A stretch of 35,608 nucleotides of DNA from Candidatus Poribacteria bacterium (lineage in GTDB: Bacteria > Poribacteria > WGA-4E > WGA-3G), in assembly GCA_009843785.1 (NCBI GenBank), contig VYCT01000066.1, positions 1-35,608 of the forward strand. Reading direction: 5' to 3'. Made by a program: the position numbers and the translations under genes. Below, in pieces: positions 11,235 to 35,238 of the stretch; position 1 is the stretch's first letter; each line of letters begins with the position of its first letter. Under the pieces are notes generated by a model that worked only from the letters and a program-made list of their open reading frames with translations, had not been told where the DNA came from and searched no databases.

Positions 11235-14200
11235 GTGAGGAACAAAAAAGAAATTCCCGCTGAAAATAAATCGTATTCTGCTTTGTTCTTTATTCTGTCC
11301 GGACTGTTAGGACTCGTAACCTTATGGGGGTTCTGGAGTGAGATGATCACCCGCCGCCCATGGAAGCAAATCCAGCAGCAGTTTTATCAGTATGAATATG
11401 AGAAAACACACGCGGAATTAGAAAATGCAAAGCTGGTTTTGCCAGAACTTTCTACGCCTCAAGAACCCGACGCGAAACAGTTAGGTAGCTTGACTAAAGC
11501 CGTACGGAACGCTCACGTTACACTTGAGGAAGCATTGCAGGCACGCAAGTTTCGACAGAGTGAATCGGACGCGATTAACTATAAGTATCAGCATAGCCTC
11601 CATATAGCAAAAGGTAGACGTAATGAGACGGTCGACAAGTGGCAACAGAAATTAGCTGAACTTGAATCGCAGATTGAAGGCGAATTGACTGAGGCTGTCT
11701 TGGCAGCGGAGGCAACTTTTGCTGATGCGAACAAGGATTTGGCGCGATTCTATCAAACCAATAACGACCCACAACAGGCACTTAGTACTTACCTCATCGC
11801 ACTGAAGTATAACGCTACGGACGCGGAGATCGCTGATGGCATCACGGCTGCACAAGCAGCACTTCAGGTGCTACAAGCCGACAAAGCTAAGTATGATGAG
11901 GTTGCGCGTCTGCAGGAAAAATTGAATTCCGTCGGTGGTATCAAGCGAACCTTCCTCGGCAGCCTATTGGAAAATCCGTTCCGTGAAACACGAACTATTA
12001 CGCAATATTATCTTGAAGATTTTAATCACACCGCAGATAGGTGTGCTACATGCCACTTTTCTGCTGATCGAAGTGGCTATGAACAATCCGCAGAAGAGAC
12101 GTTTGAGATTGAAGGTGATGGCGAAAATCCCGTCGTCCAACGCCTCAAGCACGCGAAGGTCAAAGTCGGTAGTGAAGGCCTCGTCATTGATGGGTTTGAT
12201 GCAGAGGCAGACGAATATACACTCGAAGAAAATGGAACGCTTACTTTCAGTGATCCGGATGTCTTCGGTGAAGTTGAGATTTCTTATGACACCGGTTACC
12301 GGTCCGTCCTTCAGACACATCCGCACCGCGATGTTCTCCTCGCAAAGCACCCTGTTGACAGATTTGGGTGTGTACCGTGCCATGGTGGACAAGGACAAGC
12401 ATTGACAGCAAAAGCTGCTCACGCCCTCACACATGCTGAATACTGGCTCAGTCCTGTACTCGGGTTAGATGAACATACCGGCAGAAAGTCCGAAGAGACG
12501 AAAGGGTATATGGAATCTAACTGCCGCCGGTGCCATGACGGGGTCATGAAATTAGATTACGGTGTAGATCCTCAAACAGATGAACCTGTCGACTACGCAC
12601 CGAATCTCACAAAAGGGTTAGCACTCTTTGAAGACCTCGGTTGCCACGGTTGCCACGCTGTAGAAGGGTATAGTGCAATCGAAAACATCGCTAAAGTCGG
12701 TCCATCGCTTGCTAAAGTTGGTAGTAAGGTGAAAGACACAGCTTGGCTCGAAAGTTGGATTAAGAAACCTGAGGCACATCTGCCGAGTACAACAATGCCG
12801 AACTTCTTCCCTGCCGAGGGGATGAGCCAAGTCGTCTATCTCAAAAACGGCGGAACGCGCACCGGCGTTGTCACGAAAACAACCAACGGTATTGAGATTA
12901 AAACAGATGATGGCACTGTATATCCCTATCCGGACGATTATGTCCTCCGTATCGTTGATGAAGTGAAGTCTATTGCAGCATATCTCGCAACGATGAGTGA
13001 TGCAAATCTTGACGAATCTTCTGTAAACTACTCCCAATCTGAAAGCGTTATTAAGGCAGGCGAAGAGACTGTTAAAACTGTCGGTTGTCTCACATGTCAT
13101 GCCGTTGGCGACTTAGGGAGCGATTTCAGCCCAGCACTTGATAGTGTCGGGGCGAAGGTTACGCCGAATTACCTCCGTCAATGGATCAGCGACCCGAAGG
13201 CTTATGATCCCGATACCAGTATGCCGAGTTTGCGGTTAAGTAACCGCGAAATTAACAACGTTGTCGCCTATCTGATGAGTTTACAGAAAGCAACTCCCAA
13301 CGCAGCGGGTGAATCCATCGGTGAAGTGGACGTAGCAGAGGGCGAAACACTCGTCAGAACTTACGGATGTTTCGGTTGCCACGAAATACCTGGTTTTGAA
13401 GATGAATCGAAGGTCGGTGCTGACCTCGGCGAATTCGGCGCGAAACTCGCTGATGAACTTGACTTTGGCGATACAGTAGGCATTGAACACAGTTGGACCG
13501 GATGGACGATCGGCAAAGTTACTGACCCGCGACGTTATCAAACCCGACGGATTGCCTCGCGGATGCCTGTCTTTCATCAAATTAAGGACAACGAAGAAAA
13601 CGCAAGGGCACTCGCTGTGCTTTTGAAGAGCTTCCAACCCGAAAAATATCCGCTCAGTTATATACATAACCGATCCGAAAAGTTGAATCGTATTGATGCG
13701 GGTAGACGATTGGTCAAAAAATATAACTGCACCGGATGCCACGAGATTGAGGGCGCAGGTGGTGATTATCGAGACGTTATCATCGCACATGAAGGACTCA
13801 GTGATATGATTGCTACGCAGCTTGCACCGCCACCACTGAAGGCTGAGGGAGCAAGGGTCTATCCCGACTGGTTGTTTAAGTTTCTCAAGGAGCCTTCTGA
13901 TATCCGATACGGACTCAAAGTACGGATGCCGACATTTAGGCTATCTGATGATGAAGCGACCACGCTTGTCGAATACTTCTCTGCGCTTGACGATGAACCG
14001 TTCCCTTATGAGACGCTTAAAGTGCCAACTCCAACGCGGGCTGAATTGCAGGTCGGTAAGCAGATTTTTGACGCACTCCAGTGTATCTCTTGCCACCCTT
14101 CACAGGGTGAAGTGATTCCTCAAGGAAGTGACAAGGCAGGGCGTCCCGATCTTTCATTGGCAAAAGAACGTCTCAAACCGGATTGGCTCATTGACTGGAT

Positions 14201-14354
14201 GAAAGACCCGCAGTCGTTCCAACCCGGAACAGCGATGCCGCAGGCGTGGCCACTCGTCGGTGGACAACACATGGCAGTTGATGGTTACGCTGGCAATGAT
14301 GCTGAAAAACAGATTCAACTCGTCCGAGATTATATGATCTCGTTGGGACGTTAA
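11235..14354 (+). CDS. Membrane-anchored octaheme cytochrome c of the bc complex
   Basis: This 1039-residue protein has one N-terminal membrane helix (about 13-36), a long charged alpha-helical/coiled-coil and TPR-like stretch (about 40-235), and then a periplasmic part with eight CxxCH heme sites starting at residues 270, 379, 430, 470, 618, 712, 832 and 950. The last five sit in repeated class-I-type cytochrome c modules, each followed by a W...P...MP pattern whose Met could be the sixth ligand. Between the fourth and fifth is a small beta-module (VVYLKNGGTRTGVVTK..., about residues 530-560) like that of Planctomycete-type heme proteins. Being last in the bc operon it most likely takes electrons from the Rieske protein in place of cytochrome c1. 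GTG start with AGGGAG 8 bases upstream. Confidence 0.9.
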   Translation: MRNKKEIPAENKSYSALFFILSGLLGLVTLWGFWSEMITRRPWKQIQQQFYQYEYEKTHAELENAKLVLPELSTPQEPDAKQLGSLTKAVRNAHVTLEEALQARKFRQSESDAINYKYQHSLHIAKGRRNETVDKWQQKLAELESQIEGELTEAVLAAEATFADANKDLARFYQTNNDPQQALSTYLIALKYNATDAEIADGITAAQAALQVLQADKAKYDEVARLQEKLNSVGGIKRTFLGSLLENPFRETRTITQYYLEDFNHTADRCATCHFSADRSGYEQSAEETFEIEGDGENPVVQRLKHAKVKVGSEGLVIDGFDAEADEYTLEENGTLTFSDPDVFGEVEISYDTGYRSVLQTHPHRDVLLAKHPVDRFGCVPCHGGQGQALTAKAAHALTHAEYWLSPVLGLDEHTGRKSEETKGYMESNCRRCHDGVMKLDYGVDPQTDEPVDYAPNLTKGLALFEDLGCHGCHAVEGYSAIENIAKVGPSLAKVGSKVKDTAWLESWIKKPEAHLPSTTMPNFFPAEGMSQVVYLKNGGTRTGVVTKTTNGIEIKTDDGTVYPYPDDYVLRIVDEVKSIAAYLATMSDANLDESSVNYSQSESVIKAGEETVKTVGCLTCHAVGDLGSDFSPALDSVGAKVTPNYLRQWISDPKAYDPDTSMPSLRLSNREINNVVAYLMSLQKATPNAAGESIGEVDVAEGETLVRTYGCFGCHEIPGFEDESKVGADLGEFGAKLADELDFGDTVGIEHSWTGWTIGKVTDPRRYQTRRIASRMPVFHQIKDNEENARALAVLLKSFQPEKYPLSYIHNRSEKLNRIDAGRRLVKKYNCTGCHEIEGAGGDYRDVIIAHEGLSDMIATQLAPPPLKAEGARVYPDWLFKFLKEPSDIRYGLKVRMPTFRLSDDEATTLVEYFSALDDEPFPYETLKVPTPTRAELQVGKQIFDALQCISCHPSQGEVIPQGSDKAGRPDLSLAKERLKPDWLIDWMKDPQSFQPGTAMPQAWPLVGGQHMAVDGYAGNDAEKQIQLVRDYMISLGR

Positions 14355-15970: not shown

Positions 15971-17872
15971 ATGAAAATATCTAAAAAGAGACTCTATCTT
16001 ATACTGGGCTGCGTGCTCGTCTTTTATGCCGTGTTGGCTATCGCACCCGCGTTCGCACAGGACATGACTGAGGCTGAATATCGTCCTTTCCCGGTAGTCG
16101 GCAGCCGAACCGCAGCATGGATCGCCGCGCAGCTCCACCTATTGTTCGGATCCTTCATTCTCGGTGTCCCGATGTTCGCCGTTATCATCGAATTTATCGG
16201 CTGGAAGACCAAGGAGGAACGATACGATCGGATGGCACAGGAGTTCATTAAACTCTGTATGGGCGCGTTTTCGACAACAGCCTTACTCGGTGGAGTCCTC
16301 GTCTTCATTCTTATCTGGTGCTACCCGAAGGTGATGAGCAAACTCAGCGGGATATTCGGACCGACGATGATTTTTTATGTCATCCTGTTCTTCGGCGAAA
16401 CCTTTACGCTCTACCTCTATTCCTACGGATGGGATAAGATGCAGGGACGGCATAAAGGATGGCATCTCTTCCTCGGTGTTTTATTAAATGTGTGGGGCAC
16501 GGCGATTATGTTTGTCTCTAATTCATGGCTGACTTATCAGACGAGCCCGGCAACACAACACGGTATCATCTCTGAGATGCGAAAGAAATCTTGGGTTGAA
16601 GAAAAAATGGCTGCGGATCCGTCGCTAACACCTGAAACCGTTATGGAGGGGGTTACAAGCCATACAATGGTGCCACTCCACAATGAGACAACAGGCGAGT
16701 TCATGGCGACCGTTTGGGATGCCGTCAACAACTTTACGTGGATGCCGGTTAACATTCACCGGTTGATCGGAAATATTGCCTTCGGCGGTTCAATAGTGGC
16801 GGCTTATGCCGCGTTTCGCTTCCTCGTCGCGAAAACGAAGGAGGACAAAGCGCACTACGATTGGATGGGGTATAATGGAAACTTCATCGCACTCTGTGGA
16901 CTCATTCCATTACCGTTTGCAGGGTATTGGCTTGGCCGCGAAATCTACATGTTCAACAACACCATGGGCATTAATATGATGGGCAGCCTCTTCTCTTGGC
17001 TGTTTATCATTCAGGCGGTAATGATTGGTGTCCTATTCATCGGCGCGAACTACTACCTCTGGTCAGGTATGGGACGGATTGATGGTGCAGAGATTTATGC
17101 GCGCTACCGTCCGTACATGATTATCGTTATCATTGTCTGTGTTGCCATCTGGATGACCCCGCGAACACTCTCTAAAATCTCGACCGCCAGTGAACTGAGT
17201 GCTATGGGCGGCGCGAACCATCCGCATCTGGGATCTTTCGGACTCATGACTGCCAAGAATACAGCTGTGAATATCATTATCCTGACCACTTTCTTGAGTT
17301 TTCTATTTTATCGGCGTTCTGGGAAAACACCAACGGCGAGTTGGCGAACAGTCGGGAACATTGTGATCTCTGCTCTCTTCTTTTTCGCAGTCGTCTCAAT
17401 CGTGGTGATCGGTATCGTAGGATTTGCCGTGCCGACAGATTTTCGTGTCAACGTGCTAACCCCGTGGCAGGTCGTGATCGCCGTCGTTGTGATGTTCGCG
17501 GTGACGGTACTTGATGCTTTGATGTACAGGAGAGCGCAGACTTCGGGGACTATCAAATGGGGTGAGATGACAGACCGCTCACAATATGTGTTAATTCTCT
17601 TGGCAATTACATTTACGTCCTTGATGGGTTTGATGGGGTACGCTCGCTCCGGACTTCGAGAACAGTGGCATGTCTTCGGGGTCATGCCGGATACGTCCCC
17701 TGACGCGTTTACACCGCCTCTCAGCGAGGCAGTGAACATGGTCGCTATTATTATGGTTATCTTCTTCGCACTCGTCGGCTTTATCTTCTGGCTCGGTCTG
17801 TGGGGTGAAAAGAAAAAACAAACTGCGGCTCCGCCTGCGGAAGCGGAGGGTGTAGCTCAAGGGGATGATTAG
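15971..17872 (+). CDS. CydA-like (cytochrome bd subunit I-related) membrane protein
   Basis: This 633-residue protein has about 14 hydrophobic helices. The N-terminal half resembles cytochrome bd subunit I: AQLHLLFGSFILGVP (equivalent of the heme b595 His), FVSNSWLTYQTSPA (like ANSWMQ.PVG) and NIHRLIGNIAFGG (equivalent of the heme b558 His). The classical quinol-loop box GRQPW is absent; near the C-terminus a related-looking GYARSGLREQWHV may be its counterpart. No cydB or cydX follows. Instead come three cytochrome c genes, a pattern I recall for bd-like oxidases of Nitrospira and other deep lineages. It may pass electrons between quinone and cytochrome c, or reduce oxygen; the reaction is unproven. 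The ATG lies directly after a repeat element and lacks a clear ribosome site. Confidence 0.75.
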   Translation: MKISKKRLYLILGCVLVFYAVLAIAPAFAQDMTEAEYRPFPVVGSRTAAWIAAQLHLLFGSFILGVPMFAVIIEFIGWKTKEERYDRMAQEFIKLCMGAFSTTALLGGVLVFILIWCYPKVMSKLSGIFGPTMIFYVILFFGETFTLYLYSYGWDKMQGRHKGWHLFLGVLLNVWGTAIMFVSNSWLTYQTSPATQHGIISEMRKKSWVEEKMAADPSLTPETVMEGVTSHTMVPLHNETTGEFMATVWDAVNNFTWMPVNIHRLIGNIAFGGSIVAAYAAFRFLVAKTKEDKAHYDWMGYNGNFIALCGLIPLPFAGYWLGREIYMFNNTMGINMMGSLFSWLFIIQAVMIGVLFIGANYYLWSGMGRIDGAEIYARYRPYMIIVIIVCVAIWMTPRTLSKISTASELSAMGGANHPHLGSFGLMTAKNTAVNIIILTTFLSFLFYRRSGKTPTASWRTVGNIVISALFFFAVVSIVVIGIVGFAVPTDFRVNVLTPWQVVIAVVVMFAVTVLDALMYRRAQTSGTIKWGEMTDRSQYVLILLAITFTSLMGLMGYARSGLREQWHVFGVMPDTSPDAFTPPLSEAVNMVAIIMVIFFALVGFIFWLGLWGEKKKQTAAPPAEAEGVAQGDD

Positions 17873-18046: not shown

Positions 18047-19555
18047 ATGTCGAGAAATACGCTTATAAAAATCGCAAGTCTAATCTTAATGGTGGTGAGT
18101 TTCATCGCCTATATCGCTGGCGCATCTGCATTTCCAATCGCCTCGGAAAACCTACTGCCTTGGTCGGTCTGGTTTCTAATCGCGGTAATTGTAAACATCG
18201 TCTTGTGGTCCAGCGTTATGAGATTACTAACGTTCTCGCTTGCCGTGATATGGTTTTATGCCTTTGTTGCAGGCTTGGTACCGGAAAGTTCCACAGCGGT
18301 GAATTTAACCGAACTGGATTGGAGCGACCCGGAGGCTGTGGCTGAACAAGGTGCCTTGGTCTTTAACGGAAAAGGACAATGTGCCGCGTGCCATACCGTG
18401 GATACCTCCGCACCGCCAGGAAGGTGTCCCGACTTGACAGACATCGGCACTAACGCTGCAACCCGTGTACCCGGTATGGATGCCAAAGCGTATTTGATTG
18501 AATCCATGTATCAACCGGCGAACTTTCTTGTGCCCGGCTACGGCAAAATTATGCCAGAGGTATGGAAGGCACCGATCGCGCTCTCCAAATTAGAGATCGA
18601 AGCGGTTATCGCTTATCTCCAGAGTCAAGGCGGCGAAATTGACCCGACACCGTTTGATGAACCTATAGATAGAGCGGACGCAGGGGCCACTGCTGACGCA
18701 CTTCCGCCCTTGTTGACCGGTGACTCGGAACTCGGCAAAAAGGTGTTTGTCGATGCTGCATGTATCTCATGCCATGCTGTGACAGGAATAGAGAGTCCAG
18801 CAGCGGGTGAAACAACAAATGAAGACTTTGAAGATGTCACCGCACCCGATCTCTCCGAGATCGCAGCCTTTAATGACATGCGCTACCTTGAAGAGTCAAT
18901 CCTTGTACCCGGCGCGCAAATTGTGAGCGGTTATGGTGCCGTTACCGTCCGTGCCAAAGGAACGACCTTCCAAGGAACGCTCGTCTCACAGGACGAAGAA
19001 AAAATTGTCGTCCGAACCAAAGCAGCTGACGGAACCGAAGAAGAACATACCATCTTATTGAGTGAAATTGATGATGAGCCAATTGAAGAACTCACAAACC
19101 TGAAAGCGAGGGGTTATTTTACATTAACCCTAACGCCTGCGGATGCGGATGCACCCGTAAGTGGTCAATTGGTTTCCGAAACTGATGAAACGGTAACGCT
19201 TAAGGTTGGTGAGGAAAATCAAACGTTTTCTAAAACAGATGTGAAGATGCAAATGACGCTTGTCGATTATGATGATGAAGAAACTGTTGGCGAACATGTT
19301 TCGGGAACAATGGACGACTTCGAAATTGTTTTAATCATTGATCGCACTGAGGAGACTTATGATCCGTTTGATTATCAAAGTGGTACCATGACCCGTGCGT
19401 CTGGCAAGAGGTTGCTTGTTACATCGCCGATGCCCGAAAACTTCCCGATCATCTTATCAGTGGCGGATTTGACCAACCTACTCTCTTTCTTAAGCACACT
19501 CACGGGCGCGACAGCGGAAGCAGCAGAGGAGACAGAAGATACTCCTGCAGAATAA
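18047..19555 (+). CDS. Membrane-anchored diheme cytochrome c with two beta-modules
   Basis: This 502-residue protein has three N-terminal membrane helices (about 8-30, 40-58 and 62-82), then two heme sites, CAACH at 112 and CISCH at 239. The second heme domain is split by an insertion. After YEESILVPGAQ-type sequence comes a beta-module (RAKGTTFQGTLVSQDEEKIVV), then a second one (352-400, LKARGYFTLTLTPADA...), then the closing MPENFPIILSVADLTNLLSFLS. The first module and closing segment follow the plan of Planctomycete-type heme-binding domains (TIGR02603-like). The second matches the insert in CoxB in this window. It likely receives or donates electrons to the CydA-like protein encoded just upstream. 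Translation seems to depend on the leader at 17990 rather than on a normal ribosome site. Confidence 0.88.
   Translation: MSRNTLIKIASLILMVVSFIAYIAGASAFPIASENLLPWSVWFLIAVIVNIVLWSSVMRLLTFSLAVIWFYAFVAGLVPESSTAVNLTELDWSDPEAVAEQGALVFNGKGQCAACHTVDTSAPPGRCPDLTDIGTNAATRVPGMDAKAYLIESMYQPANFLVPGYGKIMPEVWKAPIALSKLEIEAVIAYLQSQGGEIDPTPFDEPIDRADAGATADALPPLLTGDSELGKKVFVDAACISCHAVTGIESPAAGETTNEDFEDVTAPDLSEIAAFNDMRYLEESILVPGAQIVSGYGAVTVRAKGTTFQGTLVSQDEEKIVVRTKAADGTEEEHTILLSEIDDEPIEELTNLKARGYFTLTLTPADADAPVSGQLVSETDETVTLKVGEENQTFSKTDVKMQMTLVDYDDEETVGEHVSGTMDDFEIVLIIDRTEETYDPFDYQSGTMTRASGKRLLVTSPMPENFPIILSVADLTNLLSFLSTLTGATAEAAEETEDTPAE
19100..19246 (+). other. Shared 49-residue module within the diheme cytochrome c
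   Basis: Encodes residues 352-400. Against CoxB residues 191-240 it shares about 29 of 50 positions, including LKA-GYF, LTPADA and QT-SK--VK. The two DNA segments are also visibly alike, which suggests a fairly recent duplication or transfer between the two genes. Confidence 0.8.
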
Positions 19556-25108: not shown

Positions 25109-25969
25109 ATGCTTCAATGGCTACCAGAGAACGTATCAACGTTCGGGCAAGGCGTTGATAACCTCTTTCACGCTATCTATTGGCTTACCGTCGTTGTGTT
25201 TATCCTTGTGATGGGCACGCTTATTGTTTTTCTAATTAAATATCGACATCAGGAAGGCAAAAAGGCAGACTACATTGAGGGGAGCACAACGCTGGAAATC
25301 GTCTGGACAGTTGTTACAACAGTGATTGTCTTTGTCCTCGCGATGTTTAGTTACCCGCAATGGAACAATATTAAGTCGCCGACACAATTTCCTGAGAATC
25401 CAGATGTTGTCGTACAGGTCAGTGGAAAGCAGTTCAACTGGGATATGACCTATCCCGGCCCCGATAACGAGTTCGGGACAGACGACGACCTTGAATTGGA
25501 AAACGAATTGCATGTGCCGATGAACGCGGTCGTGCATATCCGATTAACCGCTGAGGATGTCATCCACAGTTTTTTTGTGCCACAATTACGGCTGAAACAG
25601 GACGCATTGCCGAACCGATTTATCAATGTTTGGTTTCAGACAGAATTGGATGATAAACCGATTCAAAACTTTGAAAGGCTGAAAGCGAAAGGGTATTTTG
25701 CAGTAACGCTAACGCCTGCTGACGCAAATACGCCACTGATAAGTGGGACTATCCTCAAGGAAACCGAGGATACCTTAGAACTGGAAGTCGGTGATGAGAC
25801 CCAAACGATTTCTAAAGCGAATGTAAAACAGTTAGCCCCAAAGGTATGGCGTTATGAAATACCCTGTGCCGAACTCTGTGGATTCGGACACTCTGGAATG
25901 CTCGGCTATCTTAATGTGCATACGCAAGAAAGTTATGATGCTTGGGTACAAGAAAGATGGCCCCAGTAG
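25109..25969 (+). CDS. coxB: Cytochrome c oxidase subunit II with an inserted module in the CuA domain
   Basis: This 286-residue subunit accepts electrons from cytochrome c or a cupredoxin through its binuclear CuA centre. Two membrane helices (about 20-45 and 65-88) are followed by the periplasmic cupredoxin domain. Ligands are His153, Cys253, Glu255, Cys257, His261 and Met264 (CAELCGFGHSGM). His to first Cys is 100 residues; in Paracoccus it is 35 (His181 to Cys216). The extra 65 residues include 191-240 (LKAKGYFAVTLTPADA...), which match the module at 19100-19246. WRYEIPCAELCG resumes the normal sequence. All CuA ligands are intact, so the protein should still work. AAGGAGG lies 7 bases before the ATG. 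No signal peptide lipobox and no fused heme c are seen. Confidence 0.93.
   Translation: MLQWLPENVSTFGQGVDNLFHAIYWLTVVVFILVMGTLIVFLIKYRHQEGKKADYIEGSTTLEIVWTVVTTVIVFVLAMFSYPQWNNIKSPTQFPENPDVVVQVSGKQFNWDMTYPGPDNEFGTDDDLELENELHVPMNAVVHIRLTAEDVIHSFFVPQLRLKQDALPNRFINVWFQTELDDKPIQNFERLKAKGYFAVTLTPADANTPLISGTILKETEDTLELEVGDETQTISKANVKQLAPKVWRYEIPCAELCGFGHSGMLGYLNVHTQESYDAWVQERWPQ
25679..25828 (+). other. Shared 50-residue module inserted in CoxB
   Basis: Encodes CoxB residues 191-240, in the loop between the first CuA His and the Cys pair. It replaces the short turn (typically PGxY) that joins these strands in other subunits II. About 29 of 50 residues match residues 352-400 of the diheme cytochrome c at 18047. 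Confidence 0.82.
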
Positions 25970-25989
25970 GCTCAAGGAGGATAGTAAAT

Positions 25990-27813
25990 ATGCACGATAA
26001 CGAACATACGGAACATCATCACGAAGAAAGTTTTATTCGTAAATACATCTTTTCGCTCGACCACAAGACAATCGGTAAGCAGTTCCTTATCTATGGACTG
26101 ATTATGTTCTTTGTCGGCGGCGGACTTGCCCTGCTCTTTAGGTGGCAACTCGCCTACCCCGATCAGCCGCTACCGATCATCGGTGCCTCACAACAATATC
26201 TTGACGAGGGTGAAGTTGTCACAGGGGCTGACAGGATGTGGGAACGTATCTATGAGTCGGATAAAGAGGAATGGCTTGAGACAAGCATGCCGAGCGGTGT
26301 CATTACACCCGAATTTTACAATATGCTCTTTACGATGCATGCAACCATTATGGTCTTCTTTGTCGTCGTTCCGATTTTGGTGGGGGCTTTCGGAAACTTC
26401 CTAATTCCGTTGATGATCGGGACACGCGATATGGCGTTTCCGATCCTTAACATGCTCTCCTTTTGGCTCGCTGTTCTCGCTGCAATTGTGATGGCGATCG
26501 GGTTCTTTGTTCCGGGGGGACACGCTGCAGCCGGATGGACGGGCTACGCACCCCTCTCTGCTGACCCGCAATGGACAGGTGTAGAGTGGGGACAGAACCT
26601 CTGGGCAATCAGCCTACTCATTCAAGGCTTCTCCTCTTTGGTAGGTTCTATTAACTATATCACCACGATTATCAATATGCGCGCACCGGGGATGACTTTC
26701 TTTCGCATGCCATTAGTCATCTGGTCGCTTTTCATCGTCGCGATCCTCTTGCTACTCGCATTCCCTGTGTTGTCTTCCGCACTCGCGCTTCTCATCTTTG
26801 ATAGGCTGGCGGGCACAACATTCTTCTCCGCAACAGCGGAAGGCGGGGGGGACCCGCTGCTCTGGCAACATCTCTTCTGGTTCTTCGGACACCCAGAGGT
26901 CTATATCCTCATTTTGCCAGGCATGGGAATCGCTTCCGAGTTGATTGCCGTCTTTTCACGGAAACCGATCTTCGGATATCGGTCCATGGTCTGGGCAATG
27001 ATCGCCATCGCGTTTTTGGGTTGGATTGTCTGGGGGCACCACATGTTCCAAAGCGGTATGCGTTCCGAAATGGGTAACTTCTTCATGACGACAACTATGC
27101 TTATTGCGGTGCCTTCTGCCATTAAAACATTTAACTGGCTGGGAACAATGTTCCGAGGTTCAATCCGATTTACAGCCCCAATGCTCCACGGGATTGCCTT
27201 CGTTTCGATGTTTGTCATCGGTGGGCTCAGCGGTATCTACATGGCAAATACGCCAGTCGATATCTTCATCCACGATACTTACTACATTGTGGCGCATATT
27301 CACTATGTTGTGTTCGGCGGAAGTCTGTTCGCTATCTTCGGTGGCATCATCTTTTGGTTCCCAAAGATGTATGGTCGCTATATGAACGATGCACTCTCCA
27401 AAATTCACTTTTGGTTGACGTTCATCGCGTTCAACTGTACATTCTTCCCCATGCATATTCTCGGCGTAGGTGGACACATGCGGCGCATCTCCAACCCGCA
27501 GCAATATGAGTTCCTGCAAGTGTTTGAAGGCATGAACATCTTTATCACAATGAGTGCGTTCACACTCGGTTTCGCACAATTAATACTCGTCTTTAACTAC
27601 TTCTGGAGTATGTACAAAGGGAAAGTTGCCGAACAGAATCCGTGGCAGGTCAATACACTGGAATGGGAAGCACCGACACCTGTACCACATGGCAACTTCG
27701 GTCAAATCCCAACTGTCTACCGCGGTCCCTATGAATATAGTGTACCCGGTGAAGAAGAAGACTGGACTCCGCAGGCACAACCTGAACATGCACCCGCTAC
27801 AGGCGGAGACTAA
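25990..27813 (+). CDS. coxA: Cytochrome c oxidase subunit I, A1-type heme-copper oxidase
   Basis: This 607-residue catalytic subunit reduces oxygen to water and pumps protons. It has about 12 membrane helices. TMHATIMVF carries the heme a ligand. FFGHPEVYILILPG gives the CuB His, the proton-channel Glu and the cross-linked Tyr; GHHMFQSGM gives the other two CuB His; and HDTYYIVAHIHYVVFGG holds the heme a3 and heme a ligands. The GHPEVY form marks the A1 subfamily. After helix 1 there is a 40-residue periplasmic loop longer than usual (about 58-100). The ATG at 25990 is preferred over an upstream in-frame start because it has AAGGAGG 10-12 bases before it and a start with MHDNEHTEHHHEE followed by SLDHKTIGKQFLIYG. 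It lies 20 bases after coxB. Confidence 0.96.
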   Translation: MHDNEHTEHHHEESFIRKYIFSLDHKTIGKQFLIYGLIMFFVGGGLALLFRWQLAYPDQPLPIIGASQQYLDEGEVVTGADRMWERIYESDKEEWLETSMPSGVITPEFYNMLFTMHATIMVFFVVVPILVGAFGNFLIPLMIGTRDMAFPILNMLSFWLAVLAAIVMAIGFFVPGGHAAAGWTGYAPLSADPQWTGVEWGQNLWAISLLIQGFSSLVGSINYITTIINMRAPGMTFFRMPLVIWSLFIVAILLLLAFPVLSSALALLIFDRLAGTTFFSATAEGGGDPLLWQHLFWFFGHPEVYILILPGMGIASELIAVFSRKPIFGYRSMVWAMIAIAFLGWIVWGHHMFQSGMRSEMGNFFMTTTMLIAVPSAIKTFNWLGTMFRGSIRFTAPMLHGIAFVSMFVIGGLSGIYMANTPVDIFIHDTYYIVAHIHYVVFGGSLFAIFGGIIFWFPKMYGRYMNDALSKIHFWLTFIAFNCTFFPMHILGVGGHMRRISNPQQYEFLQVFEGMNIFITMSAFTLGFAQLILVFNYFWSMYKGKVAEQNPWQVNTLEWEAPTPVPHGNFGQIPTVYRGPYEYSVPGEEEDWTPQAQPEHAPATGGD

Positions 27814-30344: not shown

Positions 30345-30944
30345 ATGATGGCACAGAACAACGTTGAAATGCGCGAGTCCGATCGCCCACCCTTGAGCAA
30401 CGCACGATTGGGGGTATTAGTCCTGCTCGGTGCAGAGACGATGCTGTTTTCGGGACTTATCGGGACGTTTCTCGTATTTCGGGTCGGGAATGTCACATGG
30501 CCCCCGCCATCGCATATCGGGATTGAGTTGCCACGGGTCGTAACTGGCATTAATACCGCTCTGCTTCTGCTCAGTGGGTACACAATGTTTCAAGCGTGGC
30601 GCGCGATCCGGAAAGACAGCGTAAAGCAGCTCCGTAATTGGCTACTGATCACCGGGGTACTTGGGCTACTTTTTCTCGGTGTACAAGGCAGTGAATGGGT
30701 ACAACTCATTCGCAACGGACTTACGCTTCAATCTGGCGTATATGGCGGCATCTTTTATGTACTAATCGGGTGCCATGCGGTTCACGTACTGAGTGCTGTT
30801 ATCTGGTTGTTTATTGTTTTCGGGATGGCAATGGCAGGACGGTTCTCGGCAGACCGATACACGGGCGTTGATACTTGTGCGATCTACTGGATTTTTGTCG
30901 TCGCACTCTGGCCAATTCTCTATGTTTTGGTATATCTCTCGTAG
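30345..30944 (+). CDS. Cytochrome c oxidase subunit III-like protein, divergent
   Basis: This 199-residue protein has five membrane helices and is related to CoxIII: RLGVLVLLGAETMLFSGLIGTFLVFR, FLGVQGSEWVQLIRNGLT, FYVLIGCHAVHVLSAVIW and the final helix CAIYWIFVVALWPILYVLVYL. The normal closing motif YWHFVD-IW is here IYWIFVVALW, lacking the His and Asp. It is clearly a paralogue of the more typical subunit III at 31288 and may be a structural companion to it. Two ATGs lie together at 30345 and 30348; no strong ribosome site is seen. The gene is 49 bases after the three-repeat protein. Confidence 0.8.
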   Translation: MMAQNNVEMRESDRPPLSNARLGVLVLLGAETMLFSGLIGTFLVFRVGNVTWPPPSHIGIELPRVVTGINTALLLLSGYTMFQAWRAIRKDSVKQLRNWLLITGVLGLLFLGVQGSEWVQLIRNGLTLQSGVYGGIFYVLIGCHAVHVLSAVIWLFIVFGMAMAGRFSADRYTGVDTCAIYWIFVVALWPILYVLVYLS

Positions 30945-31287: not shown

Positions 31288-31938
31288 GTGGAACACGCTA
31301 CCACTTTAGACCACACTGAAGACGTATACGAGCCTTCACTTACGCCGGACAGCCTCGGCAAGCTCGGCATGTGGATTTTCCTCGTCGGGGATACCATGTC
31401 CTTTGGCGCGTTGCTCGCAGCGTACGCGGCACTCCGGGCGGGTGCAGGCATAGTGGGTTGGGTACCACCGGACGAAATCCTCGGTATTAACCTAACCGCG
31501 GGCATGACATTCCTCCTGATATGCAGTAGTGTCACTATGGTGAAGGCACTCGAATCCATTCAGAGCGGTAATGTTTCTCGCATGTGCCTGTTTCTTGGAC
31601 TCACAATCGCTGGCGGTGTCATTTTCTTAGGGTTACAGGCTTATGAATGGTATCACCTTATTACCCACGGCTTGACGCTTACTGAGATTCCCGCTCACGG
31701 GTTAAAGAGTGATGTTATAAGCGGTTCAACGCTCTTTGGTCCAACTTTCTATGCCATCACAGGTTTCCACGGCTTGCACGTGACGGGTGGTGTCATTTAT
31801 CTCATCGTTATCTTGATACACGGCTTGCGGGGCAGGTATACCGCTGAGTTTAACCATGAGGTAGAAATCGTCGGACTCTACTGGCACTTCGTTGACCTTA
31901 TCTGGATTATGGTCTTCACCTTCATTTATCTACTATAG
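31288..31938 (+). CDS. coxC: Cytochrome c oxidase subunit III
   Basis: This 216-residue subunit stabilises subunit I and supports proton uptake and long-term activity. It has five membrane helices: SLGKLGMWIFLVGDTMSFGALLAAY, AGMTFLLICSSVTMVKAL, LGLTIAGGVIFLGLQAYEWYHLI, FYAITGFHGLHVTGGVIYLIVIL and VEIVGLYWHFVDLIWIMVFTFIYLL. The YWHFVDLIW closing motif and FHGLHVTGG are diagnostic. The two N-terminal helices of seven-helix forms are absent, as is normal for caa3/aa3 oxidases of this type. The GTG at 31288 has AAAGGAG ten bases upstream. It is followed at 11 bases by subunit IV. Confidence 0.93.
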   Translation: MEHATTLDHTEDVYEPSLTPDSLGKLGMWIFLVGDTMSFGALLAAYAALRAGAGIVGWVPPDEILGINLTAGMTFLLICSSVTMVKALESIQSGNVSRMCLFLGLTIAGGVIFLGLQAYEWYHLITHGLTLTEIPAHGLKSDVISGSTLFGPTFYAITGFHGLHVTGGVIYLIVILIHGLRGRYTAEFNHEVEIVGLYWHFVDLIWIMVFTFIYLL

Positions 31939-33330: not shown

Positions 33331-35238
33331 ATGATTAAGAAGATTTACGTGCCAGTTGATAATTCGGACTACTCCGATGCAAGTATCGCTTTAGCGGTCG
33401 AATTCGCAAAGAAATTCGGCTCACATCTCGTCGGTTCGCACGTTTACGCCGCAAAGATGCACGATGTCCGCTTCAAGCAGATGGAATACACCCTTCCAGA
33501 AGAGTATCAAGACGAGGTCGAGCTTGAAAAACAACGCCGCATCCACGATACCCTCATTACGATGGGACTGCAACTGATCTCCGATTCCTATCTTGAGGTG
33601 ATGAAACAGAAGTGCACCGAATTTGATATCCCGTTTGAACCCAAAATGCCGGAAGGCAAACACTTTATAAAACTCGTTGAAGACATTCAGGAAAGCGATT
33701 ACGATCTCGTCATTATGGGTGCACTCGGCATGGGTGCAGTCAAAGATAGCCTTATCGGCGGTGTTACTGAACGCGTCGTCCGCCGTATTAATACCGATAC
33801 GCTCGTTGTCCGAGACCTTGAACCCATTGAAGCACATAACGGCAATATCCTCGTCGGCATTGATGGAAGCCCTGAATCTTTCTCAGGTTTGAAAACCGCA
33901 ATACAACTCGGACGTAAGTTTAACAAACAGGTTGAAGCCGTTGGGGTTTATGACCCTTATCTACACTACATCGTCTTCAATTCCGTCGTGAATGTGCTAA
34001 CCGAACGCGCCGCAAGAACTTTCAGATTTAAAGAGCAAGAACAACTCCACGAAGAGGTGATTGATACCGGATTAGCAAAAATTTATCAGTCACACTTAGA
34101 AGTCGCGCGCGCCATTGCAAAAGATGAACACGACTATGCTCTAAAAATTACCCTGCTCGACGGAAAGGCATACGAAAAGATTCTACAATATGTCCGAAAA
34201 ACGAACCCCTGGCTCCTCGTCTTAGGTAGAATCGGTGTCCATAGTGAACAAGAGATGGACATCGGAAGCACTGCAGAAAATCTGTTACGTCTTGCCCCTT
34301 GCAATGTGCTTTTATCCAGTCAGCGTTATTTTCCACAAATAGATGTGAAAGCGGAAGAGACGCTCGTCTGGACGCAGGAGGCGTTAGATAGAATGGAAAA
34401 AGCCCCACCCTTAGTGCGTGGCATCGCTAAGACAGCCGTACATCGGTTTGCCATTGAACGCGGTCATTCTGTTATTACCGAGAGCGTCATTGATATGGCG
34501 ATGGAAGCGATTATGCCGCAACGTGCATCTGAAAAACTGACGCGTGTCGCAAAAGAGATCGCTGAACAGAAAGTCTTAGAGTCAGATGCCGTCCAGACAT
34601 ATATCTGTGGCGAGTGTGGCTATGCCGCACACAACCAGCAACCCGTCCAGTGTCCTGTCTGTAGTTCACCACCGGAACGTTTTCAGATGGTGGACAAAAC
34701 CGCTCTGGAGAACGTGGCCGTAGACGAAGGCGGTGCTGCCGAGGAAGAAACGTTTGATGGCGTACGACTCCAATGGTCAGAACAGGCGAAAAAAGCGCTG
34801 CGTGGCGTGCCACGCGGCTATATGCGGCGCAATGTCAAAGCACGCATCGAAAAATCCGCACGTTCCCAAAAAATTGGCACTATTACAAATGCCTTCGCAA
34901 CAGAGATTATCAATGACAGCATGGGCGAAGCAGCTGCAGTCCGTGAGGATGCACCTGAACTCAGAACCTTGCAAGCACAGACTTCCGATGCCCAGAATAC
35001 AGAAGTCGTTCCAGGTTTTGAAAGTCCAGTGAAATGGACGGAAGAGGCAATCGAGCGTTTGAATTTGGTGCCTGCTGGGTTTATGCGAAATATCACGCAG
35101 ACCCGAATAGAACAGCGAGCGCAAGAGCACAACATTGAACAAGTTACACTCGATTTCACAGCACGCGTCATTGAAGATGGCAGAAGCCTCGCCAATGAAG
35201 TACTCGGACAGTATTATCAACAGCCGAATCAGGATTAA
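33331..35238 (+). CDS. Tandem universal stress protein fused to zinc ribbon and PCP_red-like domains
   Basis: This 635-residue protein has two USP domains: 1-166, with MGALGMGAVKDSLIGG as nucleotide-binding loop, and about 171-330, starting NILVGIDGSPES. Then comes a PCP_red-like helical domain (about 349-392, WTQEALDRMEKAPPLVRGIAKTAVHRFA), a rubredoxin-like zinc or iron ribbon (Cys426, 429, 441, 444: CGECG and CPVC), and two more PCP_red-like domains (about 482-535, WSEQAKKALRGVP, and about 568-620, WTEEAIERLNLVP). PCP_red is otherwise known from the C-terminus of the BchB/ChlB subunit of protochlorophyllide reductase. It lies behind the cox terminator. An AAGGAAAA site precedes the ATG at 33331. 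The role is unknown; redox or stress sensing beside the respiratory genes is possible. Confidence 0.85.
   Translation: MIKKIYVPVDNSDYSDASIALAVEFAKKFGSHLVGSHVYAAKMHDVRFKQMEYTLPEEYQDEVELEKQRRIHDTLITMGLQLISDSYLEVMKQKCTEFDIPFEPKMPEGKHFIKLVEDIQESDYDLVIMGALGMGAVKDSLIGGVTERVVRRINTDTLVVRDLEPIEAHNGNILVGIDGSPESFSGLKTAIQLGRKFNKQVEAVGVYDPYLHYIVFNSVVNVLTERAARTFRFKEQEQLHEEVIDTGLAKIYQSHLEVARAIAKDEHDYALKITLLDGKAYEKILQYVRKTNPWLLVLGRIGVHSEQEMDIGSTAENLLRLAPCNVLLSSQRYFPQIDVKAEETLVWTQEALDRMEKAPPLVRGIAKTAVHRFAIERGHSVITESVIDMAMEAIMPQRASEKLTRVAKEIAEQKVLESDAVQTYICGECGYAAHNQQPVQCPVCSSPPERFQMVDKTALENVAVDEGGAAEEETFDGVRLQWSEQAKKALRGVPRGYMRRNVKARIEKSARSQKIGTITNAFATEIINDSMGEAAAVREDAPELRTLQAQTSDAQNTEVVPGFESPVKWTEEAIERLNLVPAGFMRNITQTRIEQRAQEHNIEQVTLDFTARVIEDGRSLANEVLGQYYQQPNQD

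Follow-up and report, generated by a model that had tools for sequence, protein, structure and literature searches.

The cytochrome c oxidase subunit II (CoxB) encoded in the Candidatus Poribacteria DNA analyzed here (35,608 nucleotides of contig VYCT01000066.1, hereafter called the window) carries an additional module in the hairpin that leads to its CuA cysteines. On sequence comparison, this insert is homologous to the middle one of three repeats in the nose region of a diheme cytochrome c, the gene of which lies 6.5 kb upstream of coxB (table 1). In the account that we favor, with a probability of about 0.7 and with its parts either demonstrated or strongly indicated, a small nose module of Sm/SH3-like type, originally part of the diheme cytochrome, would have been copied once, in frame, into the tip of the CoxB β-hairpin, an event placed in an ancestor of genomes belonging to this family of Poribacteria. 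Purifying selection would then have kept the new allele, and homologous recombination would have passed it among species and genera, in the present case through a short tract of approximately 0.45 kb.

Window CoxB scores 158 bits with TIGR02866, the CoxB equivalog model (curated cut-off 147.7), and possesses the complete set of CuA ligands (His153, Cys253, Glu255 with its carbonyl, Cys257, His261, and Met264), all of which are invariant in an alignment of 27 CoxB sequences. Its His153 and Cys253 lie 100 residues apart, as against 35 in orthologues of the same genus, 35-37 in most CoxB proteins from other sampled genera, and 35 in Paracoccus subunit II, which aligns without gaps across the His-Cys stretch. 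The original prediction, made from the DNA alone, had reported this contrast with Paracoccus and placed an extra module in the hairpin preceding the CuA cysteines; both points agree with the comparison of orthologues. It had confined the module to 25679-25828 (residues 191-240), where the match with the cytochrome does lie, but the true insert is longer. This insert is in frame, flanked by RFINVWF and RYEIPCAELCG, and nearly its whole length is homologous to the cytochrome repeat. A search of the genome found no second CoxB, and hence it is the modified subunit that has to do the work, provided that the oxidase is used. Residue 109 of the protein (25433-25435), which would correspond to the electron-entry tryptophan (bovine W104), is Phe and is invariant in the 27-sequence alignment; Trp111 is kept.

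Table 1. Positions of the features discussed in the text, numbered along the window
Feature	Positions	Strand	Basis or remark
Diheme cytochrome c, membrane-anchored, relative of Kustd1711 (PDB 7zs0)	18047..19555	+	
Nose region repeat 1, aligned with the Kustd1711 nose	18932..19075	+	strands 298-337
Nose region repeat 2, counterpart of the CoxB insert	19061..19249	+	
Nose region repeat 3	19247..19408	+	repeat 2 vs 3 E 3e-4; strands 402-449
coxB, cytochrome c oxidase subunit II, 286 aa, CuA domain	25109..25969	+	ORF, TIGR02866, ligand columns
Recombination tract common with the Plut_88885 genome (G065/L092), ~0.45 kb	25607..26054	+	informative sites
Insert in CoxB, residues ~177-247, net +65 aa, in place of the EATKAG hairpin	25637..25849	+	orthologue comparison
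Section of the insert with homology to cytochrome c repeat 2 (nose-like; predicted small β barrel)	25640..25834	+	
coxA, subunit I	25942..27813	+	tree conflicts with insert tree

The similarity with the cytochrome had been estimated as about 29 matches over 50 residues, and exactly 29 of the 50 are identical. With BLOSUM62, the local protein alignment of insert and cytochrome scores 188, compared with a mean of 36.7 (SD 5.5, maximum 90) for 2000 shuffles; the DNA alignment scores 70, compared with a mean of 16.6 (SD 2.0, maximum 25) for 500 shuffles. The 50-residue match, for which proper statistics had been set beforehand as the test, thus persists far beyond the shuffles, as does the predicted likeness at DNA level. 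Within the genome, the match of insert and cytochrome has an E value of 4.5e-14, and the profile built from four CoxB inserts matches repeat 2 with E 5.7e-24 and 99.6% probability in a profile-profile comparison. These statistics uphold the idea of an extra module in the CuA domain common to CoxB and the diheme cytochrome. Searching for other copies of the 50-residue unit yielded only two real copies in the genome, the third match being DnaK (E 0.55), which rules out a genome-wide mobile in-frame repeat like the palindromic elements of Rickettsia. The insert has no direct match among solved structures and no match to TIGR02603.

The cytochrome is related (E 3e-33) to Kustd1711 of Kuenenia stuttgartiensis, in which a five-stranded "nose domain" is inserted in the second heme domain; its published description notes a close resemblance to Hfq and a negative charge, and suggests that the charge of the protein mediates interactions (PMC11791136). 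Like Kustd1711, the window cytochrome would have a small Hfq-like β barrel in its second cytochrome c domain, between the heme motif and the axial Met. Unlike Kustd1711, which has a single nose, it possesses three repeats, one of which is also present in CoxB, a protein that is not a cytochrome c. These repeats, only weakly similar to each other (E 4e-5 for repeats 1 and 2, E 3e-4 for repeats 2 and 3), occupy approximately 160 residues between "SGYG" and the axial "SPMP", the place of the nose in the Poribacteria cytochrome, and the alignment with Kustd1711 passes through repeat 1. Direct comparisons with the Kustd1711 nose, each a single one, are weak: E 0.009 for the CoxB insert, 8e-4 for repeat 2, and 1e-3 for repeat 1. 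TIGR02603, a putative heme-binding domain, matches the second heme domain together with repeat 1 at 47 bits, below its cut-off of 68. The AlphaFold model of the cytochrome has low overall quality (mean pLDDT 57), and we took from it no more than the strand pattern and some weak support for the fold; with this model, Foldseek returned Kustd1711 first, followed by tandem KOW, Tudor, and Hfq barrels, the Hfq match of the whole-cytochrome model being weak (E about 0.1-0.2).

Directly upstream of the cytochrome gene lies that of a protein resembling subunit I of cytochrome bd (CydA, 15971-17872), although no CydB was seen among the annotated genes of the window. ORFs of approximately 1190 aa with weak matches (L083, L084, and L086) were considered as a new host family of the module and rejected, for each joins three parts: a paralogue of the diheme nose cytochrome, a glucose/sorbosone dehydrogenase domain, and an additional cytochrome c domain.

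The structure of CoxB with the module in place was predicted by AlphaFold from 27 CoxB sequences, only four of which cover the insert. In the prediction the insert has five strands (196-203, 211-218, 222-227, 230-235, and 239-253), the last of which is preceded by a short helical turn, and its pLDDT ranges from 79 to 93, being around 92 for most of it. The model thus supports the prediction of a folded five-stranded barrel, whose last strand is drawn as continuous with the strand leading to Cys253. In a cupredoxin fold, the tip of the hairpin would lie at the end of this strand opposite the copper, at a distance of perhaps 15-20 Angstrom.

The original prediction had the module copied either from or to a cytochrome c. 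The cytochrome copy is present in nearly all genomes of the order, whereas a search of related CoxB proteins found the insert in only four of the 85 genomes of the phylum: the window genome and G065 (Plut_88885), which belong to one genus, and G051 and G060, which belong to a sister genus. This distribution settles the direction, with the cytochrome as the source family and CoxB as the recipient. A scan of limited sensitivity found no module-bearing CoxB outside Poribacteria. A fresh copy of the genome's own cytochrome can be discarded, given that the insert is 57% identical to it and up to 62% identical to the cytochromes of other genera. That these are MAG data could favor an assembly artefact, or else a chance similarity. 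However, the four insert-bearing genomes were assembled separately, one of them (G060) as a single chromosome, the reading frame is open, and the alignment score is far beyond that of the shuffles; misassembly is in practice excluded, and we consider the probability of either explanation to be negligible.

Insert-free CoxB proteins of several families keep the intact hairpin WFEATKxG-YEIP. A wide occurrence of unrelated loops at this hairpin had been seen as a danger to the concept of a shared module; a single one was found, in G047, and hence the site is tolerant but not widely occupied. The loop in question (CoxB L070) is a strongly acidic DETEP repeat that brings the His-Cys spacing to 69; by its CoxA, G047 groups with the insert-bearing G051 and G060. 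The CoxB proteins of the latter two genomes (L055 and L056) also show a smaller-scale, tandem-like expansion, DNEFNTEAG.D.ELGTVDDPGDD, as a second addition in a different loop of their CuA domain.

How did such a rare allele come to be in two genera? In the tree of the module, built on 69 columns, the CoxB inserts of all four genomes fall into a single clade with support 96/95, and a branch supported at 100/99 separates these inserts and the cytochromes of their own family from the cytochromes of families f2 and f4. All four inserts have in common one additional residue within NTPx[IV]xG, as well as the junctions ELD...VKQL...WR[YF]E. Two independent copyings from cytochrome c to CoxB, one in each genus, would account for the long branch that separates the g1 and g13 inserts, as well as for the separate backbone history of CoxB in G051 and G060; yet the support for the clade, the extra residue in common, and the shared junction residues on both sides render them improbable. 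The divergence between the inserts of the two genera (46-52% identity) indicates that they are old, and this would also fit an ancient insert in the ancestor of the family that was subsequently lost many times, precisely and without any horizontal spread. Such a scenario would require repeated exact excision to restore the intact WFEATKxG-YEIP hairpin of several families, and it is contradicted by direct evidence of transfer, presented below; we therefore judge it to be very improbable.

The spread by recombination finds its evidence in the conflict between trees and in the distribution of informative sites. Well-supported branches of the CoxA tree, in which G065 lies beside the insert-free G004 and the window sequence falls within a supported group with the insert-free G005, G014, G015, and G021, force at least three changes of insert state; the tree of the CoxB backbone, with the insert left out, needs three changes. 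For G051 and G060, CoxA groups with that of G047 and G056 and the CoxB backbone does not, a mismatch that points to a previous transfer of coxB. Over the window in general, the DNA is most similar to the genomes behind L096, L106, and L097; in the neighborhood of the insert, by contrast, L092 (the contig of G065) shows the greatest identity. Among the sites separating L092 from L106 and L097, 15 of 18 side with L092 inside the tract given in table 1, as against 33 of 336 outside it (Fisher p 7e-12); this p value is somewhat optimistic, as the bounds of the tract were taken from the same sites, though the contrast remains large. Consistently, dS is lower for the insert (0.22) than for the remainder of coxB (0.46). 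Tract sites and dS contrast together indicate that the insert allele has moved between species by homologous recombination. The insert thus belongs to one older clade of CoxB inserts and reached the window species within a short recombination tract.

Subunit II is likewise combined with cytochrome c material in caa3 oxidases, in which a whole heme domain is joined at the C-terminus, and the caa3 oxidase 2yev was the top fold match. Unlike caa3 enzymes, window CoxB carries a heme-free accessory module, which is inserted internally. Subunit II of Corynebacterium glutamicum, CtaC, contains an extra charged cluster near the cytochrome c site, for which contact with the partner cytochrome has been proposed (PMC5040959). 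It resembles our case as a lineage-specific addition to the CuA domain, but it is no copy of a cytochrome module, and corynebacterial and mycobacterial CtaC proteins have only about six extra residues at the hairpin, which places their addition in another part of the protein. Mitochondrial cox2 genes also contain in-frame insertions (PMC9174706, PMC5374615, PMC5695614), which are eukaryotic and of other origin. The type of domain and the existence of additions to subunit II are already known; the capture, its place, and the recombining allele make a new form of such additions.

The insert is under purifying selection: its dN/dS is 0.24 between the window and G065 (p = 0.005 for being below 1) and 0.18 between G051 and G060 (p = 6e-5), both by a simple count test. 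These values are higher than those of the remainder of coxB, and the insert evolves faster than the CoxB backbone. In functional terms, genes for a bc-type complex lie in the window together with that of the diheme cytochrome and a cluster for an aa3-type oxidase. The module would rigidly extend the CuA domain, its last strand running into that of Cys253, and could help to keep near CuA either the diheme cytochrome with its triple nose or a different c cytochrome from the cluster. Such a putative docking role, which the original prediction had raised along with a regulatory one, is reasonable because the site adjoins CuA in sequence and the module is common to a probable partner; it also accords with the charged surface suggested to act in Kustd1711 and with the contact role proposed for the CtaC addition, even if this is in a different loop. 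Net charge is negative in the soluble part of CoxB as well as in the diheme cytochrome and the remaining c cytochromes of the cluster, and so simple attraction between charges is unlikely and the contact would need to be of another kind, perhaps barrel-to-barrel rather than between opposite charges. We advance this role tentatively, at odds clearly short of even. That a nose-to-nose contact might fix the donor at CuA, with the recombining allele acting as a "docking allele" that rewires electron entry in a subset of sponge-symbiont species, is a bolder extension that we deem unlikely.

Approximately 95% of the relatives have the cytochrome and the oxidase without the insert, which is therefore dispensable. 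This absence is also what one would expect if the module, instead of docking a cytochrome, were a tolerated passenger that folds by itself in a permissive hairpin and has no role, selection merely preventing harmful unfolding. Its faster evolution in comparison with the CoxB backbone and the unrelated DETEP repeat in the same hairpin of G047 point in this direction too, whereas dN/dS values well below 1 in two independent pairs, and the gain of the allele by at least one further lineage instead of losses only, speak against it. Toleration without function stands as a serious contender, a little below an even chance; it competes with the docking role only and leaves the single capture and spread of the module unaffected.

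The CuA domain of CoxB shows strong conservation, and it is unusual in nature for a domain to be captured from a probable partner and to move afterwards between species by short-tract recombination; the hosts here are a few species of sponge-symbiont Poribacteria. The sister species G065 and G004, the former with the module and the latter without it, have otherwise near-identical CoxB proteins and offer a natural experiment on cytochrome c docking. Moreover, the nose domain, here represented in solved structures of one protein only (Kustd1711), proves to be both repeated and portable.

Other features of the window concern the same bioenergetic genes. Beside those for the Rieske protein and a split cytochrome b lies the gene for a 1039-aa protein with eight CxxCH motifs (11235-14354), forming part of an unusual bc-type complex. 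The one oxidase cluster includes two COX3-like genes (30345-30944 and 31288-31938), and at its end (33331-35238) universal stress protein domains are joined to repeated PCP_red domains, which resemble the C-terminal part of protochlorophyllide reductase.
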